In this document: positions 13,425-26,648 of the stretch, piece by piece
How positions within the stretch are numbered: the first letter of the stretch is position 1
Layout of the letters: each line of letters begins with the position of its first letter
Source of the DNA: a virus
Length of the DNA: 36,812 nt
Virus record (IMG/VR): IMGVR_UViG_3300035698_009921
Coordinates: 1 to 36,812 of that record
Strand: one strand, 5' to 3'
The notes under the pieces: generated by a model
Told to the model about the DNA's origin: nothing
Seen by the model: the letters and a program-made list of their open reading frames with translations, nothing else
Databases searched by the model: none
Made by a program: the position numbers and the translations under genes

Positions 13425-14780
13425 ATGAAAAAAGAAGACTATAAGAACGTAAAAATCTCAATCTGTGTCCCAGCTTATGGAACCGTAACAGCAACATGGC
13501 TGATAAGTTACATGAAATTCATGCAAGATGCAATCAACAAATTCTCAGTAACCTCATTTATACACGAACAACAGCCAGTAAGTGTAAGTAGAAACATATT
13601 AGTAGACATGGCACTCACAAAGGATCCTGATTATATTTTATTTGTAGATGCAGACAATATCATTCCACCAGGAACAATCGAGAAACTGATTGACACAATG
13701 GAAAAGACTGAAGCTGAATTCGTAACAGCAACATACTTCTCAAAACAACCACCATACTATCCAGTGATCAGGCAATACAAATCAGGAGGATTCTGGAAAG
13801 TAGACAACCCAGCACTCGGCCAACAATTCGAAATAGGTGGAGCAGGGTTCGGATGTTGTTTAATTAAGAAACGAGTATTCGCAAAATTACAAAAACCATA
13901 CTTTAAATTTAGTCACGAAACATGGGGAAGAAAGGATATCACACTAAGTGAAGATTTATACTTCTGCAGACAAATGATAGCAACCAAACAAAAGATGGTA
14001 TGTGATACAAGTGTCGTGTGTCCACACGTAGGTGGAGCAATTGACGTAATGGAATACATGAACTTCGCACCAATCAGGCAAAGCACAATGATGGATCGTG
14101 AAGAATTATTAAAAGATTTAAGGGGATTCACTGGAAGGACCGAAAACGAAGTTGACTTGGATGTCATGGTAGGACCAGGATTAATGAAAGAAGCTTGGGA
14201 GAAAGCCAAACCATCAACATTCGAAGAACAAAAGAAATTCTATAAAGAGACAGATCGATACTTATATGACCTAAGTCTCTGGCATTTTTCAGACAGAAGA
14301 AAATGGGACATCGAACTCGCAACCAAAATGAACCGAGAGCTCAAAGATAAGCCTGATTTAAAGGTCTTAGATTTAGGATGTGGAATAGGTCAGAATTCAA
14401 TAATGTTGGCAAGATTAGGGTGCAAAATGACTCTCGCAGACCTTGATAGCGTAACGCTTGGATTCGCAGAACATAGATTCAAAGAACATGAAATCCCATA
14501 CAAAATATGGAAGACAGACCTTGAAGATATGCCACCAGAAGAAAAGTACGATTACATCCTCGCCCTTGATCTATTCGAACACTTACCAATTGAAGAAATG
14601 AAGAAATACGCTGACAAAATAGAGAAACTTAAACACAAAGGAACCAAAGTTATAATGACAAACAGCTTCGGACAAGACTCAGGTGGAGTAGTATATTCAC
14701 ACCCAATGCACTACGACGAAGAAGAAGGACATAAAGATATCATAAACAAAATCAAACACGAAGGACCAGATGGTAAGTAA
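13425..14780 (+). CDS. Glycosyltransferase (GT-A) fused to a SAM methyltransferase
   Basis: Residues 9-220 resemble a GT2-type GT-A glycosyltransferase: ISICVPAYGT at the nucleotide-binding strand, the DxD motif VDADN (Asp75, Asp77), and LSEDLYFC with Glu176/Asp177 in the acceptor/catalytic-base position. Residues about 290-430 form a class I SAM methyltransferase: VLDLGCGIGQNS (motif I, Gly318), a following acidic strand end (TLADLD) and YDYILALDLFEHL (motif IV). It probably transfers a sugar and methylates it, or modifies a polysaccharide or glycoprotein in the cytoplasm. The gene overlaps the giant surface-enzyme gene by 11 bases, so glycosylation of that protein, other sequon/Thr-rich surface proteins, or host glycans is a reasonable inference. 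Complete, with no missing key motif. Confidence 0.75.
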   Translation: MKKEDYKNVKISICVPAYGTVTATWLISYMKFMQDAINKFSVTSFIHEQQPVSVSRNILVDMALTKDPDYILFVDADNIIPPGTIEKLIDTMEKTEAEFVTATYFSKQPPYYPVIRQYKSGGFWKVDNPALGQQFEIGGAGFGCCLIKKRVFAKLQKPYFKFSHETWGRKDITLSEDLYFCRQMIATKQKMVCDTSVVCPHVGGAIDVMEYMNFAPIRQSTMMDREELLKDLRGFTGRTENEVDLDVMVGPGLMKEAWEKAKPSTFEEQKKFYKETDRYLYDLSLWHFSDRRKWDIELATKMNRELKDKPDLKVLDLGCGIGQNSIMLARLGCKMTLADLDSVTLGFAEHRFKEHEIPYKIWKTDLEDMPPEEKYDYILALDLFEHLPIEEMKKYADKIEKLKHKGTKVIMTNSFGQDSGGVVYSHPMHYDEEEGHKDIINKIKHEGPDGK

Positions 14781-17700
14781 TACAACAAAAGTCGGAAGTT
14801 TAGTCATTGTAGTATTCATAACTTTTTTTTCTTTTCAATACTTTGAACAAGTCCGAATAGATTTCAGAGATACAAATACAGTATTTAAAGTTTGGGAAGA
14901 TACTAAATTCGTTAAGTCAGGCACAGAATATGTTAGATTGTTTGACGGTTCTAAATTAATGAGAGCTAAACAAAGGAATAATGAATTTAATATTAGAGAT
15001 GGTAAAACTATCGTTAATAAATATGCTGAATTTAAAGATGGTATTGAAGTTGAACAAAGATATGTATTTAATAATATAATCGATAATATTGAACAAATAC
15101 CATTATCAGAACAGATTTGTATACATAATGGTAAGGGTAAAATATTGGAATGGTTGATTGATGATATATATTATGATGGAGATACTGTTGATATAATAAG
15201 TCCTTTTTCTTTTGGAAAAAATATGAAAATTACATTTCAAGATGGATACTATCGAGCAAAAGTTTATCAACAAATTTCTAAAGATAAGATTATTGTTAGG
15301 TATCGAATAGATTCAGATGTTAAATGTTTTAATGTAAAAATGTTTGATCCAGAAGATAATATTAATGTAATTAGAGTTCAAAATGCAACAGCATATTCTA
15401 ATACTGTAGGGGTTTCTGCCAAAGCAACTTTTTCACAAGCAATCGTTGAAAATAATTTATTAGTTGCTATTTCATTTTGTAGAAATGGAGATGATGCAGA
15501 TTTACCTATATCAGCAACAATATCTGGAGAAAATTGGACTAATGCATTTATAAATTATTATAAAACATTAGAAAGTTTTACTGATAGAAGAGGTCTAGCA
15601 GTTTTTTATAAAATAGCTGGACCTGATGAAAATGAAACAGTATCTATTAATTGGAGTTTTTCTGACAAACGAGATTGTTTAATGCTACAAGAATTTAATA
15701 CAACTATAGCTGATTATAATTTTACGTTTGATACTAGCGTTTACAATCATTCAATAACTTCATCAGTTTCATCAATTTCAACAAATACAACAGGTATATC
15801 AACAAATAATGATTCTTTTATTTTAACTGTAGTTGGAACAAGAGATGAATCTGGTAATGCAACATGGACTAATGATATTAGTGATAATTTATACTATTTT
15901 GATTCTGTTGGTAATAGAGCTATAAATTCTGGTTTTGGTGTAGATAATGTATCAAGTGCAAAAGAAAGTGTCGCTACATATGGTACTGCAAGATTATCAA
16001 ATTCGGGAATTTTAGTTTTTAGTTTAATTGATGAAGTTACTACAACTACAACTACAACTACAACTACTACAACAACGACTACTATTGTTAATGCATTAAA
16101 CCTTACAACCGATTTAAAAGAATGTTGGGACATGGATAGTTTAGATTGTAGTTGGACAGGAACAAGAAACATGAGTCCAACTGGAACTCCTCAACCATAT
16201 TTAGATACTGTAACTAATAAAGTCGGAACTGGTAGTTATTATTTTGATGGACAAAATTGTTTTACTTTTGAAAATGATAATGCTTTAGAAGGATTTAAAG
16301 AAGTCACTGTTGCTTATTGGACATGGAAAAATTATACAGATGCCGAAGAACGTTATCCTTATGCAAATCAAGATAATTCAGCTAATAATCGTTCGCTTTG
16401 GACTGGATTTTATCAAAATAAATATTTATTCGGAATTAATAATGATTGGGTGCAATCATCTGCTGATGCAGCTACAAAAGAATGGATACATATTGTTTTT
16501 ACATATAATGGAACACATAGGAAAATTTATCAAAATAGTATTTTAAATTTAACTGATGTAGACACTTTGGGAGATTTAGGGACTACATTATCTAATTATT
16601 CAATAGGATGTAGACATAAGGATAATACTTTAGAAAAATTCTTTATTGGTGGTGTAGATGTAGTAGCAACATGGAATAGATCATTAAGTGCTGAAGAAGT
16701 TACATCAATATATAATAGTTCATTCGGGCAAACATGTAATGAGATGACTAACACAACTACAACGACTACGACTACGACTACAACTACTACGACTACAACG
16801 ACTACTACTTTAGGACCGACAATAGAAACTGTAGCTTGTTTTGGCGATTCTTTTACAGATGGATATTCATGTATAGATAGGACTAATAACTATTGTACAT
16901 TATTGAACATGACAGCAAATTATACTACATATAATTATGGAGTTAGCGGTGAAACAACTGAAGATTTACAAGCTAGAACAAGTGATGTTTTAGATAAAGG
17001 TTATAATATAACTCTTATTCAAGTTGGAGCAAATGATATTAAATTAGATGCTTATATTCCTTTAGCACAATTTTATATTAATCTATCAAATCTTACACAA
17101 GAATTAGTTGATAATGGTAGTGATATTTATATTGCAACTTTAACACCTTGTAATAAATCAGATGAAAGACCATGTTCAGATGAAAATATTGTAAACTTAA
17201 CTCATAGAAATAATATTATAAGACGAATATCACATGAACAACAAGTAGGTATAGTTGATTGGATGGAAGATGTATTTCATAATGCATATAATGATTCAAA
17301 GATTTGTGCTGCAGATACTCATAGAATGCATCCCAATGAAAACGCACACATCGAAATGAACGCATCAATGTTTGACACTTTACAATTAGGAATAATACCA
17401 TTTGATTGCGATATAAATCCTGATGATTGTTGGGATTATTCTGCTACTCAAACAAATTTAAATCAAACTACTACAATTTGGTATCCTTATGCTGAATGGA
17501 ATTTTACTAATCCAGATTGGACTGGTAACGCTTTTGATTTAGAAGCTAATGCTACATTTGATAACGGTTACACTATACACATGTTTTATGATAGCGGAAC
17601 ATCTTGGCTTATGAGATTTATGTGTAATGACACAGGCATTTTTAATTTTACAACATCTTCCAGTGATAATGATTTAAATTTGATAAGTGGTAATGTGACA

Positions 17701-19329
17701 TGTTCTGGAAATGAGAATGGAATGGGAAGATTAACATATGTTACTGTAGGTGATGCTAGTAAGTTTTATGTAGGCGGGTGGGAAAAAGCAATAATTCCAA
17801 TATGGGATATGGTTCCTCCAGATGTTAGAGTTCCAGCATCTATTGAAACAAGTTTTATAGATACATGGTTTACTAATAATATTTACAATGGATTTTTAGG
17901 AGGACATACAATGAGTCCTGGAAATAAATGGTATAACTGGTCTTGTGATGGAACATGGGACGATGCTGGTTGTAATACAAGTAATCCAGATCCAGATGCA
18001 TTCGCATATTATGAATATATTATCGAAAAATCATATAATAATGATTCATTTTTTCATATTTGGATGTGGTGGGATATGGATGCTGGACGAAAATTGGGCG
18101 ATATTTATCATGAAACAAAAGAGAACAATGCTACAAACCGAGAAAGACTTAGAAAATATATGGCTGATAGATGGGGAGCAATACCTAATTTAATAATTGG
18201 AGAAGGCTTTGATAATAATGAAAATGATAATACTACTATACTAAATAGTTGGTATGATACTATACAAAATAGAACACCTTATACTATTATGCTTGGTGCA
18301 AGGAATGAAAAAAATACTTATGTAGAAATATGCACAAATTGTAATTATATTTCTTGGGAAACTCAGGGAGAATTTACACCGCTAACTTATTTAAGATTCA
18401 ATACATCACAGAGTTATTCAGAACCAACACGACCTGTATTTGAAGAAGATAGATACAGAATAGAATCTGGTACTGCCGATAAACCGATACATAATGCTAC
18501 TTATATGAGTCAGATTATGTGGTGGTTATCAATGAATGAAGGTGTGGGAGGAATCTTTTCATATTTAATTGATCAACTTAGTGGCGGTTCTTATACTAAT
18601 GAGAATGGATATCCTGCAGAATATCAAACAGTTATATCAGCATGGTCAGATTTTTGGAATAATAGAACCAATGATACAACAGAAAGATTCAGTGTTGAAA
18701 TGGCTTATTGTAATGAACTTTCAAATAATGCAACTACTTATTGTATGAATGATAGCATCAGAAGCATTTTTTATAATGAACTGAACACTACATTTACAAA
18801 TATAACTTTAACAGAAATGGGTAACATTACAGCATGGGATGTTATGAATAATAGTCAAATAGAATTAGGGTTTCAATCTGCAGGAGTATATGAATATACA
18901 GCTCCGTATGAAACTCAATGGGTATTCGATATAGTTTATGGAATATCACCAGTAGGTCTTAGTATTAATTTAAGTTTTGGACCAGCAGGAACGTCTATTT
19001 TTAGATACGAAACATGTGGGCCAGATTTTGAGAATGCATCAGCATTGCCAGAAGGACAAGACAATACTTATGGGATTGATTATGTTTGTAATAATGGAAC
19101 TGCAGGAGCAGGGGATATAGGCTTAAAATTAGCAGGAGCATCAAACACAAACTGGACAATATGGGCAAGCAATATCAGTGTAGATTCTAATCTCATAAAC
19201 TTAACAACAAGCTATCAGACAATATATTCACAACTCGCACAAGGATCATGCACATACTTCTGGTTTAAGGCAAACTGCAGTTATGTGAACCAAGGACCCG
19301 GAACTTATGAACAATATCAAATAAGCTAA
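14770..19329 (+). CDS. Giant signal-anchored protein with LamG-like, SGNH esterase and glycosidase-like domains
   Basis: This 1519-aa protein has an N-terminal hydrophobic anchor (about 7-24), then a module (about 28-198) shared with the protein at 27232 (IRF: FGKNMKITFQ, RYRIDSDVKCFNVKMFDP). A beta domain (about 205-420) leads to a Thr run (424-438), a LamG/concanavalin-like domain (about 445-655; GSYYFDGQNCF, GVDVVATWNRSLSAEEV) and a second Thr run (662-680). An SGNH hydrolase follows: GDSF with nucleophile Ser694, GVSGET, GAND with Asn755, and DTHRMHPN with probable His854. Residues about 1015-1330 look like a TIM-barrel glycosidase of DUF4038/apiosidase-like type (WGAIPNLIIGEGFD with Glu1145, ISWETQGEF with Glu1197). 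It probably deacylates and cuts surface polysaccharide. T-ending codons differ from its neighbours until about 19000. The glycosidase family is tentative. Confidence 0.7.
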   Translation: MVSNTTKVGSLVIVVFITFFSFQYFEQVRIDFRDTNTVFKVWEDTKFVKSGTEYVRLFDGSKLMRAKQRNNEFNIRDGKTIVNKYAEFKDGIEVEQRYVFNNIIDNIEQIPLSEQICIHNGKGKILEWLIDDIYYDGDTVDIISPFSFGKNMKITFQDGYYRAKVYQQISKDKIIVRYRIDSDVKCFNVKMFDPEDNINVIRVQNATAYSNTVGVSAKATFSQAIVENNLLVAISFCRNGDDADLPISATISGENWTNAFINYYKTLESFTDRRGLAVFYKIAGPDENETVSINWSFSDKRDCLMLQEFNTTIADYNFTFDTSVYNHSITSSVSSISTNTTGISTNNDSFILTVVGTRDESGNATWTNDISDNLYYFDSVGNRAINSGFGVDNVSSAKESVATYGTARLSNSGILVFSLIDEVTTTTTTTTTTTTTTTIVNALNLTTDLKECWDMDSLDCSWTGTRNMSPTGTPQPYLDTVTNKVGTGSYYFDGQNCFTFENDNALEGFKEVTVAYWTWKNYTDAEERYPYANQDNSANNRSLWTGFYQNKYLFGINNDWVQSSADAATKEWIHIVFTYNGTHRKIYQNSILNLTDVDTLGDLGTTLSNYSIGCRHKDNTLEKFFIGGVDVVATWNRSLSAEEVTSIYNSSFGQTCNEMTNTTTTTTTTTTTTTTTTTTTLGPTIETVACFGDSFTDGYSCIDRTNNYCTLLNMTANYTTYNYGVSGETTEDLQARTSDVLDKGYNITLIQVGANDIKLDAYIPLAQFYINLSNLTQELVDNGSDIYIATLTPCNKSDERPCSDENIVNLTHRNNIIRRISHEQQVGIVDWMEDVFHNAYNDSKICAADTHRMHPNENAHIEMNASMFDTLQLGIIPFDCDINPDDCWDYSATQTNLNQTTTIWYPYAEWNFTNPDWTGNAFDLEANATFDNGYTIHMFYDSGTSWLMRFMCNDTGIFNFTTSSSDNDLNLISGNVTCSGNENGMGRLTYVTVGDASKFYVGGWEKAIIPIWDMVPPDVRVPASIETSFIDTWFTNNIYNGFLGGHTMSPGNKWYNWSCDGTWDDAGCNTSNPDPDAFAYYEYIIEKSYNNDSFFHIWMWWDMDAGRKLGDIYHETKENNATNRERLRKYMADRWGAIPNLIIGEGFDNNENDNTTILNSWYDTIQNRTPYTIMLGARNEKNTYVEICTNCNYISWETQGEFTPLTYLRFNTSQSYSEPTRPVFEEDRYRIESGTADKPIHNATYMSQIMWWLSMNEGVGGIFSYLIDQLSGGSYTNENGYPAEYQTVISAWSDFWNNRTNDTTERFSVEMAYCNELSNNATTYCMNDSIRSIFYNELNTTFTNITLTEMGNITAWDVMNNSQIELGFQSAGVYEYTAPYETQWVFDIVYGISPVGLSINLSFGPAGTSIFRYETCGPDFENASALPEGQDNTYGIDYVCNNGTAGAGDIGLKLAGASNTNWTIWASNISVDSNLINLTTSYQTIYSQLAQGSCTYFWFKANCSYVNQGPGTYEQYQIS
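16039..16083 (+). repeat. Poly-Thr codon array 1
   Basis: Fifteen consecutive ACN codons, mainly alternating ACT/ACA, encode a Thr linker before the LamG-like domain. The in-frame triplet array can change length without breaking the gene. Confidence 0.85.
16753..16809 (+). repeat. Poly-Thr codon array 2
   Basis: Nineteen consecutive ACN codons (ACA/ACT/ACG mixtures) encode the linker between the LamG-like and SGNH domains. Probably an extended, possibly O-glycosylated spacer. Confidence 0.85.
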
Positions 19330-21073: not shown

Positions 21074-22672
21074 ATGACACAAAATAATGTATTGCCAGAA
21101 GGCGCAACAAGAAACCAAGGAGCAAACGCTCAACAAGTAAACATAACCATTGCAAAAATGGTGGCTGGGATTGTCAAGACAACTCTCGGACCAAAGGGAA
21201 TGGACAAACTTCTCGTTGACAGTTTAGGAGACGTAACTGTAACAAATGACGGAGTAACAATTCTAAGAGAAATGACCATTGAGAATCCAGTCGCAAAGAT
21301 GATGGTAGAAATCGCTAAAACCCAAGAATTAGAGGTAGGCGATGGAACCACAACTGCAGTAGTATTGGCAGGAGAACTTCTGAGTAACGCTGAAGAATTA
21401 ATCAAGAAAAAGATTCATCCAACAGTCATAGCAAAAGGATATCAGATAGCATGCGACAAAGGAATAGATATCCTTAAAGAAATGGCAATCGATATCAAGA
21501 AGAAACCAGAATATGAAATAATTTTAAACCAGATAGCAATGACAGCAATGACAGGCAAGGGAGCAGAATCTGACCGAGAACACCTTGCGAAAGTAGTAGT
21601 TGATGCAATTCTTAAAGTAGCTGAAGGAGATAAGGTAGACCTTGACTCAATCATGGTAGAAAAGAAGACCGGAAACTCAGTAAAAAATACACAAGTCATA
21701 GAAGGAATCGTACTTGACAAGACAAAGATACATCCAAATATGCCAGACAGCGTAAAGGCCGCAAAGATTGCGATCATAGATTCAGGAATTGAAATAAAGA
21801 ATCTTGAAATGGATGCTAAGATTAACATTAATAGTCCTCAGCAAATGCAAGAATTCATGTTAAATGAAGCAAACGAGATAAAAGGAATGATTGACCAGGT
21901 CACAGCATCAGGAGCAAACGTCCTTATTTGTGGGAAAAACGTGGATGAATCAGCACAACACTTCCTAACAAAGCAAGGAATCTTCGCAATGCAAAGAATA
22001 TCTCGAGAAGATTTAAATCGGATAAGCAAAGCAACAGGAGCGAAGATCGTAACAAGTATAACCGACTTGACAGCTGAAGACTGTGGAAAAGCAGGAGAAG
22101 TCTCACAAGAATTTATAGGAGATTCAGATATGATTTTTATAAAAGAATGTGAAAACCCAAAAAGCATAACCATCATGGTAAGAGGCGCAACTGAACAAGT
22201 CACCTCAGAAGTGAAACGAGCATTGGAAGATGCAATGGGAGATATAGCGACTATGGTAAGACAACCAAATGCAGTTGGAGGAGCAGGCGCACCAGAGATG
22301 AAACTCAGTGAAGCACTTCAAGAATTCTCAAAACAACATAAAGGAAGAGAACAACTTGCGATTCAGGCATTCGCCAAAGCAATGGAAATCATCCCAGAGA
22401 CTCTGGCAGAGAATGCAGGACTGGACCCAATCGACATCATGGCTGAATTACAGTCAGATATGCTAACAGGCACAACTAAGTGGCCAGGCATTAATGTCTT
22501 CACAGGCAGAGTAATGGACAGCTGGAAAGAGGGAGTAATTGAACCATTAAGGGTCAAGACTCAAGCAATCAGTTCAGCCGCAGAAGTTGCAACAATGGTA
22601 TTGCGAATAGATGACGTAATCAGTATAATGCACAACCCAGACGAACTCAAAGCACAGAGAGCACAGATGTAA
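21074..22672 (+). CDS. Thermosome subunit (group II chaperonin)
   Basis: At 532 aa it is close to the usual archaeal thermosome length. Clear motifs are [12 protein letters not shown] (about 37-48), [22 protein letters not shown] with the catalytic Asp in GDGTT (about 94), and [12 protein letters not shown] (normally GGGAPE, so one Gly is Ala). The ALEDAMGD segment follows the family around the intermediate-domain Asp. The apical region, AGLDPIDIM and LRIDDVISI near the end are intact. The C-terminal Gly/Met tail of many thermosomes is missing (ends RAQM). It would form an ATP-driven double ring that folds proteins, here perhaps capsid, tail or giant surface proteins. Flanked by the connector and tail terminator genes, it is part of the virus region rather than a distant host locus. 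Confidence 0.92.
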
Positions 22673-23479: not shown

Positions 23480-24430
23480 ATGACATGCCCAGCAACAGTA
23501 TCATGGTTAGGCTACGGATGGGAAACCACATTCGGAACAGTTTCCACATCAATGAATAAAGCATTCGGTCATGGTGTTAAAATCAGCAATCTGAACCGAA
23601 AAAACAACATCGAAAAAGTGTATCAATCAGGAAGCAAAAATGCACAAGTCCTTCAAGAGAAAAGATACGAAGGATCCTTGACAGCAGAATTCGTACTTGC
23701 AAACCCTTGGTTCTATCATGGAGTCCTTGGAGCAGTGACAGACTCAGCTACGTCGTCACCATTCACACATACATTCTCCGAAGCTGACGATTTAACAAGT
23801 ATATCTCTTGCAAACAATATACAAACAGCAGCAGTAAGACAAGCTCAATTATTGGGTGGAGTTTTTAATTCTGTGACGATATCATCAGCAATAAACGAAC
23901 TGGTAAAAGTTAGAGCAGATATACCATTCGCAAATGAAACATTCTCAACATCAACATCCAGTAAAATAACAGAATCATACGACCTTTATTCATTTGCACA
24001 TGGAACACTTGAATTGCCAGACGGAAGTACACTTGCACAAGTTCAAAACTTCGAAACAACAATAAACAACAATGCAGAAATGATATATGGACAAGGAAGT
24101 AGAATCGCACAATGTGCAGTAAGCAAACAAAGAGATTATTCAGGAAGTATCACTATGGCACTATCGGCATCAGCTGACTTATTAGAGAAATGTTATGGTG
24201 CATCAACAGGGCCAGCAGACACTGTAGCAGAAAGTGCAGACTTAGTTCTGACATTTACAAATGGCTCAACAGGAACATTATCAAGAAGTATCACATCAAC
24301 ATACACAGGAGTAAAAATAGACGAAGATAGTATGCCACAAGACCCAAGTCAAGTAATCATGGAAGACGTATCAATCATGATGCGAAGTTTATCAGTAGCA
24401 GCAATCGACTCAACAGAAACAGCAGTCTAA
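23480..24430 (+). CDS. Major tail tube protein
   Basis: A 316-aa beta-rich protein placed between the tail terminator and the tail assembly chaperone, the canonical tube position. The pattern WLGYGWETTFGTVSTSMNKA, then EKRYEGSLTAEFVLANPWF and a long Thr/Ser-rich beta region fits tail tube proteins of archaeal and bacterial siphoviruses or myoviruses. No sheath gene is seen beside it, so a flexible non-contractile tail is likely. Strong ribosome binding site (AAGGAGGAAATCTAA). Confidence 0.7.
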   Translation: MTCPATVSWLGYGWETTFGTVSTSMNKAFGHGVKISNLNRKNNIEKVYQSGSKNAQVLQEKRYEGSLTAEFVLANPWFYHGVLGAVTDSATSSPFTHTFSEADDLTSISLANNIQTAAVRQAQLLGGVFNSVTISSAINELVKVRADIPFANETFSTSTSSKITESYDLYSFAHGTLELPDGSTLAQVQNFETTINNNAEMIYGQGSRIAQCAVSKQRDYSGSITMALSASADLLEKCYGASTGPADTVAESADLVLTFTNGSTGTLSRSITSTYTGVKIDEDSMPQDPSQVIMEDVSIMMRSLSVAAIDSTETAV

Positions 24431-24444
24431 ATAGGAGGAATAAA

Positions 24445-24858
24445 ATGACAGATGTACAAGTAACACAACCACAACAAGAAGAAACCCCAGAACCGGTCTA
24501 TATCGAAAAGACAATAGATATCGTAAAAGCAGGGAAACCACGAAAGGTAAGAGTAAGAGAAATCCCAATAGATTGGGAAGGAAAAGAAGAAATTGTAGTT
24601 ATCAAGAAAATGTCATTCGGAGAACGTGCAAAATTCTCAGATAAATTCTTAAAAATCGAAATGGAAGGAGACAAACCAAAGACAGGCATTGACATGGGAT
24701 TAATGCAAATCGAGTCACTGTTGGCAGGAATCCACGAAGCACCATTCGAGATAACCAGAGACTATATCGAATATGAACTTGATGGACAAATAGGAGAACA
24801 ACTACATAAAGAAGTTGAAGCACTCAACAAATTAACAGGTGCTCAAAAAAAAAAGTAA
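24445..24858 (+). CDS. Tail assembly chaperone, short form (gpG-like)
   Basis: A 137-aa acidic protein between tube and tape measure, behind ATAGGAGGAATAAA. A disordered Gln/Glu/Pro-rich start is followed by a small alpha/beta domain (VRVREIPIDWEGKEEIVVIKK, EIEMEGDKPK-type region and ESLLAGIHEAPFEITRDYI). It ends at TAA 24856-24858, directly after a run of ten A. In siphoviruses this short product and its frameshifted extension coat the tape measure protein during tail assembly. Confidence 0.7.
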   Translation: MTDVQVTQPQQEETPEPVYIEKTIDIVKAGKPRKVRVREIPIDWEGKEEIVVIKKMSFGERAKFSDKFLKIEMEGDKPKTGIDMGLMQIESLLAGIHEAPFEITRDYIEYELDGQIGEQLHKEVEALNKLTGAQKKK

Positions 24859-25070
24859 GATGGGCAGTTAAACATGGTACTCAAGATAAAAGCATTCAAA
24901 AAGTATTAACTTATTTCAGACTAAAATATTATTTAAATATGAGCCAAGAAGAAGTTGATAATACTGAAGCAATGATCATCGACATGTATCTGATTGCCCT
25001 TGAAGAAGTTAAAGGCAAAGGTGGAGCGAACCAAGAGGAAGACGAAATCGCTCAAGCATTTATGGGATAA
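24445..25070 (+). CDS. Tail assembly chaperone, long -1 frameshift form (gpG-T-like)
   Basis: At 24845-24854 lies C-A10-G. A -1 slip there avoids the TAA at 24856 and opens a frame (KVRWAVKHGTQDKSIQK...) that runs to TAA 25068-25070, three bases before the tape measure ATG. The predicted fusion is 208 aa. The extension has no start codon of its own near its beginning and carries YLNMSQEEVDNTEAMIIDM, a pattern typical of the T part of tail chaperones. Slippage could be ribosomal or by RNA polymerase on A10. No downstream pseudoknot was checked. Confidence 0.75.
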
Positions 25071-25073
25071 AAA

Positions 25074-26648
25074 ATGGCAGAAAGTTACGGTATGAAAGTA
25101 TGGCTTGATTTTCAAATCAAGAATATGAAGAAGATCCAGGCAGAAGTCAAGGAGAAACTTGGCAATGTAGATATGGAAGCAATGCTTGGAAAGGCAAAAG
25201 AGGCATCTAAGCAGATACAATCCTCTTTCGGAAAAATAGATCTAAAAGGAATAACTAAAGCACTATCCCAGAAGCAGGGAGCAGTACAAAAAGCTGGAGA
25301 ACTGGGAGCAGAATCAGGAACTCTCGGAAAATTAGCAGCAACAGCTGGTGCAGTTGTAGGAGTTCTATTCGTAATTAAAAAGATAGCACAGAAAGCATTA
25401 AATGAAATAGTCAAGAGTTCACCATACTTGCAAGGCATAATGAGCGTAATGAGCAGGGCGTGGACAAATGTATGGCGACCTTTCGGTGATTTTCTGGGAA
25501 ACTTACTGAGGCCATTGGCGGTAGCGTTATTAAAAATGTCAGTCAAGTGGCTACAATTTACCAGGACAGAAACAGGAGAAGCAGTGGTAAAAGGAGCAAG
25601 TGGAGCCGCAGCAGGAGCCGGAATCGGAGCAGGGGTCGGAGCAATAGCAGGAGGAATAGCAGGAGGACCAATAGGAGCACTTGCAGGAGCAGGAGTTGGC
25701 GCACTTACAGGTGCAGGAATCGGAGCATCAATAGCATTATTAGGTGATGCAATTGAAGGAACAAAGAATCTGGCAACGGTTGCAAGCGCATGGACCGATA
25801 AATTATTGGAAACATTTGGAATAGATACAGATGCAATGAAAACTGCAGTAACCACATTCTTCTGGGTAACAATACCTGAATTTTTCACAGAAAAAATACC
25901 ACAATTTATCAGCGATTCAATTGATTCAATGGGAAATATTGGAGCATGGATATGGTTAAAAATAACAGGAGTCCTTGGACCAGCATGGGAAAAATTAAAA
26001 GAATTCTCAACGTGGGTATGGGACAAAATAACAACATCCCTTGCAACAGCATGGGAAAAATTAAAAGAATTCTCAACGTGGGTATGGGACAAAATAACAA
26101 CATCCCTTGCAACAGCATGGACCAAACTGGGAGAGTTCTCAGGATGGATATGGGATTTAATCACAACAGCATTAAACAGCGTATCAACAAAGCTGGGAGA
26201 GTTTGCTGTATGGTTATGGGAAAAAGTCACATCAATCTGGTCATGGAGTAAAGACCTTGGACAATGGCTATATGATAAAATCACAGGCGCACTATCAAAC
26301 ATTGGAGATAAACTTGTAAACATAGGACAATACATGTACAACAAAGTGACTTCCAGTATAAGTAGAGCATTTGAAAATTTCAAATTCGGATGGTCATGGG
26401 GATGGTCACAGGGAAGCCACCAAACAGGAGCAAATTATATCCCAAGGGATGGATTATATAATCTACATGCAGGAGAAAAGGTAGTAAACTCTTCCAGGAC
26501 TGCAAGAGAAGATAAAGCAAACAGTATAATTTTTAATCCATCATTCACAATCAATGCAACAGGAGCAGGAGTTGCAGAAATAGAAAGCACGATCAGGAAT
26601 TCAACCAGAATGCTGGAATTTGAAATCAGAAGACGGAGCCTAATATGA
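25074..26648 (+). CDS. Tape measure protein
   Basis: A 524-aa protein just after the tail chaperone. The N-terminus is helical (IKNMKKIQAEVKEKL). A hydrophobic helix lies around 87-105, and an Ala/Gly-rich membrane-like segment around 170-225 (GAGIGAGVGAIAGGIAG) could insert into the host membrane at DNA entry. Trp-rich about 22-residue repeats follow at about 285-430 (AWEKLKEFSTWVWDKITTSLAT), the first two identical. The C-terminus (GANYIPRDGLYNLHAGEKVV) is a tape-measure end motif. It sets tail length; at 524 aa the tail should be short for a siphovirus. Confidence 0.85.
   Translation: MAESYGMKVWLDFQIKNMKKIQAEVKEKLGNVDMEAMLGKAKEASKQIQSSFGKIDLKGITKALSQKQGAVQKAGELGAESGTLGKLAATAGAVVGVLFVIKKIAQKALNEIVKSSPYLQGIMSVMSRAWTNVWRPFGDFLGNLLRPLAVALLKMSVKWLQFTRTETGEAVVKGASGAAAGAGIGAGVGAIAGGIAGGPIGALAGAGVGALTGAGIGASIALLGDAIEGTKNLATVASAWTDKLLETFGIDTDAMKTAVTTFFWVTIPEFFTEKIPQFISDSIDSMGNIGAWIWLKITGVLGPAWEKLKEFSTWVWDKITTSLATAWEKLKEFSTWVWDKITTSLATAWTKLGEFSGWIWDLITTALNSVSTKLGEFAVWLWEKVTSIWSWSKDLGQWLYDKITGALSNIGDKLVNIGQYMYNKVTSSISRAFENFKFGWSWGWSQGSHQTGANYIPRDGLYNLHAGEKVVNSSRTAREDKANSIIFNPSFTINATGAGVAEIESTIRNSTRMLEFEIRRRSLI
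25981..26120 (+). repeat. Perfect 66-bp tandem repeat in the tape measure gene
   Basis: Bases 25981-26046 are repeated exactly at 26047-26112, with the start of a third copy to 26120. The unit encodes 22 residues (AWEKLKEFSTWVWDKITTSLAT). The lack of any silent difference indicates a recent duplication. Confidence 0.9.

Follow-up and report, generated by a model that had tools for sequence, protein, structure and literature searches.

Does the short gene between the tail tube and tape measure genes of an uncultivated, probably archaeal virus specify two tail assembly chaperones, the longer one reached through a −1 shift on a run of ten adenines, and if so, which agent slips there, the ribosome or the RNA polymerase? 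We addressed both parts of this question in IMG/VR record IMGVR_UViG_3300035698_009921, whose 36,812 bases constitute the stretch of DNA analysed here (the window), together with related contigs and more distant archaeal loci.

Overlapping frames at a poly-A junction

The zero-frame gene, encoding a putative G-like tail assembly chaperone of 137 residues, occupies positions 24445–24858 on the plus strand and ends in GCT CAA AAA AAA AAG TAA, with its stop codon at 24856–24858. The A10 run spans 24845–24854 (+) and places two slippery heptamers in frame within the overlap, A_AAA_AAA at 24846–24852 and A_AAA_AAG at 24849–24855. An initial annotation had correctly located a C-A10-G slip site at the chaperone end but set the stop two bases beyond it; the TAA in fact adjoins the G directly, without a gap. 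In the −1 frame, an extension at the position of T runs from 24852 to 25070 (+), where 72 codons (KVRWAVKHG...AFMG) are closed by a TAA at 25068–25070, and it ends, as had been claimed, just before the tape measure ATG at 25074. Joined to the G part, it gives a product of 208 residues. The two other frames contain seven stops each across the extension region, and 15 of 5,000 dinucleotide shuffles of this region reach an open frame of such length (71 codons). The A10 is the only run of at least ten A in the window, which by itself is not significant in a genome that is 40% A.

ATGs do occur inside the −1 frame, at 24939, 24972, 24984 and 25062. The first of these lies 28 codons beyond the junction, downstream of the conserved VRWAVKHG stretch, so that the entire extension can be obtained from no ATG; the extension thus lacks a start of its own in this sense, although not in the sense of being free of internal ATGs. 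A conserved downstream RNA stimulator was considered and rejected: no stem is predicted downstream of the window junction (z +1.77 over 90 nt), and clear structure appears at one of 11 folded junctions, that of L104 (z −4.75).

The gene order is tube, chaperone, tape measure. Upstream lies the tail tube gene (23480–24430, +; Pfam Phage_tube_2, E 6e-17; PHROG minor tail protein, E 4e-23) and downstream the tape measure gene (25074–26648, +; PHROG tape measure, E 1e-9), and the chaperone is thus located between the two. Antisense to the tape measure gene is a 423-residue open frame (25112–26383, −), probably a composition artefact. A separate region of the window, 14770–19329, encodes a 1,519-residue protein with concanavalin-like lectin and GDSL lipase domains, which is possibly a host-binding protein.

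Conservation of the −1 layout and identity of the two parts

A nucleotide search for relatives returned one short match, to a Vibrio phage, and no match was obtained by searching named phages for the chaperone with tblastn, by a single-protein scan with the chaperone or by a tape measure alignment scan. The close contig L002 was found by a tail tube scan and L089 by a thermosome scan, its tube and chaperone being located with local profiles; the remaining relatives came from chaperone-profile and tube-profile scans. Together these give 12 uncultivated viral contigs with this tail tube, the window included, of which L100 and L101 stop short of the junction, leaving ten that can be read; records of the Haloarcula viruses (HCTV) were counted separately.

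All ten readable contigs possess a chaperone ORF, an A-run of 7–11 and an extension in the −1 frame, and none among them shows a plain fusion or a +1 relation. The junction run is A11 in L089 and L097, A10 in the window, L102, L103 and L104, and A9 in L096, L099 and L107. The exception to this A9–A11 range, found at nine of the ten junctions, is L002, whose A7 forms the heptamer A_AAA_AAC and is followed by TGA. The initial annotation had proposed comparing slip sites across related viruses, and this comparison returns the −1 layout throughout; among the relatives read, the two frames never occur as individual genes with proper starts, nor does the fusion that an error in the A-run might be hiding.

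The contigs are not clones, their G parts being 17–69% identical in pairwise comparison. Eight of the ten extensions match a joined profile of five rows (window, L002, L089, L096 and L097), the matches beyond these rows being L099, L102 and L103; the extensions of L104 and L107 were assigned by position and frame. The joined G-T proteins of the window and L002 are 67% identical, and across 60 aligned codons of the extension the two differ at 24, 13 and 35 sites at −1-frame positions 1, 2 and 3, respectively. Judged by this substitution pattern, the −1 frame encodes a protein under constraint. In two relatives the chaperone is adjoined by HNH-like endonuclease ORFs (judged by eye); that of L002 (6596–7093) lies where the tape measure gene begins, that of L089 (14648–15121) between tube and chaperone. 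L089 also has an in-frame TAG within its tail tube gene (14355–14357), beyond which the frame still matches the tube profile; nonsense mutation, error and readthrough are all candidate explanations.

Modelled with AlphaFold2 (pLDDT 75.9), the G part aligns best, using VIA-align, with YqbN (3klu, Z 8.2) and the HK97 tail assembly chaperone (2ob9, Z 6.7), next with 3fgx (Z 5.8) and 5ir0 (Z 5.6), after which the following entry drops to 3.9; by VIA-align's own note these are middling values. YqbN and 3fgx are presumably of phage-tail origin. In BFVD, proteins named as tail assembly chaperones are among the matches of the same model, one at rank 4 (E 1.3e-3) and Mu FS-gp41 at rank 19. A plain Foldseek search of the PDB with the G part yielded no match at E ≤ 0.001, and Pfam gave no family match for either chaperone part of the window. 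On the strength of the model, the predicted fold of the 137-residue G part resembles that of known tail assembly chaperones. The T part is modelled as helical, and searches by sequence and by fold matched it to neither lambda T nor any other T; its earlier description as T-like therefore stands with respect to position, but not to sequence or fold.

The −1 layout in ten of ten contigs, the third-position bias of substitutions, the predicted chaperone fold and the order tube–chaperone–tape measure support the view, put forward at the outset, that this locus follows the lambda G/GT design. Counting against it are the missing stem in the window, the unmatched T part and a profile comparison with HCTV-16 (below).

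Known systems and the probably archaeal setting

Lambda G/G-T shares with the window its gene order, tube (V), G, T and tape measure (H), and a −1 shift late in G, the lambda site GGGAAAG being in frame 24 nt upstream of the G stop. The window differs in its A10 slip site, in parts that lack a Pfam match and in a host that is probably archaeal. The host assignment draws on two features of gene content. The first is a complete group II chaperonin gene (thermosome subunit; 21074–22672, +; phmmer against solved archaeal chaperonins, E 2e-162), which lies within the tail region, outside the recoding, and is also present in L088 (78% identity) and L089 (57%); best genome matches of the window copy are 56–57% identical in Woesearchaeota/Nanoarchaeota and about 53–55% in Methanothrix. 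The second is that the nearest named tail tubes are those of Haloarcula viruses, with one Rossellomorea phage matching more weakly. Because of the thermosome gene and these tubes, we consider an archaeal host likely.

Haloarcula viruses HCTV-16 and HCTV-1 provide the closest named comparison for the tube: both are archaeal tailed viruses with a homologous tube (about 31% identity; 31.9% between the window and HCTV-16), directly followed by a joined chaperone feature. The HCTV-16 record annotates this feature as a 'putative programmed translational -1 frameshift', and HCTV-1 has the same feature without the note. They differ from the window in the G_GGA_AAC site (the site of HCTV-16), higher G+C and two extra ORFs before the tape measure gene, and a profile comparison of the window-family chaperone parts with those of HCTV-16 was not significant. 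The chaperone gene of HCTV-2, likewise an archaeal virus, has an A-rich −1 site, A_AAA_AAC, identical to the heptamer of L002; unlike the window site, it is given as a heptamer, with no long homopolymer stated in the relevant passage of the source (PMC5009743).

More distantly, tail tube profiles matched none of 12 archaeal genomes. In larger sets defined by phylum, they gave one match among 371 genomes for the phylum of a Woesearchaeota locus (G001), six among 392 for that of a Methanosaeta locus (G007) and two among 193 for that of a Parvarchaeota locus (G010, a set overlapping that of G001), all of them distant, and none among 28 for that of a Hadesarchaea locus (G012). Tube profile matches in genomes provided nine distant archaeal places, eight of which were read (L127 was left out). 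At these eight the profile gave no match to the second frame, which was assigned by its position between the tube and a tape-measure-like ORF; so assigned, it is −1 at seven of them, the eighth being +1. The slip site is G_GGA_AAC in four of the eight (high G+C) and A_AAT_TTT in L118, and no standard heptamer was found in L119 or L123. The apparent +1 second frame, in L125, resembles the +1 reported for HSTV-2.

Outside viruses, poly-A sites of magnesium chelatase genes also direct −1 shifts at 7–11 As, in a gene cluster that includes Methanocaldococcus and Methanococcus, although the passage describing them concerns a cellular enzyme assayed in E. coli only (PMC3711429). A −1 shift at A-AAA-AAT in a Sulfolobus fucosidase gene, of ~10% in vitro, is cited in the relevant section of a review (PMC8211752). 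Programmed −1 events are less rare in archaea than the initial annotation implied, since for this very gene they have already been published in haloarchaeal tailed viruses. Frameshifted −1 chaperones are therefore already known in archaeal tailed viruses, one of them with A_AAA_AAC, and the kind is not new.

The slipping agent

That −1 recoding takes place at the A10, by whatever agent, we regard as highly probable. The ribosome is, with moderate confidence, its main agent, and we read the locus, with the same moderate confidence, as yielding two tail assembly chaperones through programmed −1 recoding by the ribosome at this run. Most readings would end at the TAA at 24856 and give the G-like protein, while a minority would slip one base back on the A-run and continue in the −1 frame to give the G-T protein; on the ribosome, tandem lysine tRNAs would shift from AAA AAG to AAA AAA. 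By analogy with lambda, the tape measure protein may be bound through the G part, and tail tube subunits recruited through the T part.

We favour the ribosome because L002 retains the layout with an A7 in A_AAA_AAC and because haloarchaeal relatives use G-containing heptamers, at which polymerase slippage is not expected. Against the ribosome counts the length of the run, ten As being more than ribosomal slippage needs. In E. coli reporters of the magnesium chelatase poly-A sites, the share of frameshift product was 10% with 7 As, 40% with 9 and 63% with 11, and as the assay is described in the passage concerned, such protein-level data alone do not separate ribosome from polymerase (PMC3711429). 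Should these rates apply to A10, far more long product would be made than the ratio of 30:1 cited for lambda (in the corresponding passage of PMC5009743), and a G:GT ratio so far from that of lambda would be a testable oddity.

The alternative agent is RNA polymerase, which may slip at the A10 and produce mRNAs with one additional A (or two fewer), from which ordinary translation would yield G-T; a run of at least nine would then be kept for this purpose. This is possible, if doubtful, and the distribution of run lengths speaks for it in several ways. Runs are A9–A11 at nine of the ten junctions regardless of codon phase, although about seven As would suffice for a ribosomal heptamer when the run starts at codon position 2 or 3. 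We compared 198 ORFs of at least 100 residues (57,285 codons, ten records) with 400 synonymous-codon shuffles, which do not preserve codon-boundary context. Of 14 sense runs of at least nine As, nine fall on the chaperone junction and five lie elsewhere; outside the junction 20.5 were expected, and none of the 400 shuffles had five or fewer. Two of the five sit in one 128-residue ORF that is perhaps not a gene. A smaller set of 129 ORFs likewise contains one such outside run for 13.2 expected. Ratios of seen to expected are 0.89 for A5, 0.91 for A6, 0.86 for A7 (a tally of outside runs that includes the L002 junction), 0.70 for A8 and 0.24 for runs of at least nine. A6–A7 runs in the ribosome-slippery phase, summed over the 198-ORF set, number 106 for 119.7 expected, compared with 133 for 146.6 in the other phases, and are not specially avoided. 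With the slippery phase no rarer and the long runs depleted, these viruses appear to tolerate ribosomal heptamers and to avoid runs of at least nine except at the junction. Rare exceptions to this avoidance are A10 runs in two long ORFs away from the chaperone, L133 4959–8687 (−; 1,242 residues) and L140 2800–4758 (+; 652 residues). Nine is also the length at which avoidance sets in for a large proportion of bacterial genomes (PMC1088944).

The same depletion would, however, follow if replication slippage or mutation removed long runs, the layout is retained in L002 with its A7, and ribosomal slippage may itself rise with longer A-runs. As for literature on slippage by archaeal RNA polymerase, the passage found dealt with DNA polymerase. 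The suggestion in the initial annotation that A10 would also permit polymerase slippage thus gains some support from the run-length statistics, which replication instability fits equally well. We would entertain only tentatively that this lineage sets its chaperone ratio by RNA polymerase slippage, alone or with the ribosome, at the retained A9–A11 runs, with the A7 and G_GGA_AAC relatives using the ribosome alone; if true, the recoding agent would have been switched inside one gene family, in archaea.

Separate production of T, by re-initiation or internal initiation beyond the G stop, is improbable: the G stop and the start of the extension almost coincide, and TTG codons lie near the junction in L096, L103 and L107, but the window has no ATG near the junction, and conserved residues continue across it in the nearest relatives. 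Long homopolymers are error-prone, yet it is very unlikely that a sequencing or assembly error in the A-run conceals a plain fusion, since runs of 7, 9, 10 and 11 with differing flanks all maintain the −1 relation, whereas errors would mix frames.

With −1 recoding, probably ribosomal, as the preferred reading, the frameshifted tail chaperone is extended from haloarchaeal viruses to A-rich, uncultivated and probably archaeal viruses. What is unusual here is the length of the run: a long poly-A is kept at the junction and avoided elsewhere in the coding sequence of these viruses. The locus offers a compact test of whether the archaeal ribosome or the archaeal RNA polymerase slips on long A-runs, a test to which the natural series found in one gene family, A7, A9, A10 and A11, lends itself well.
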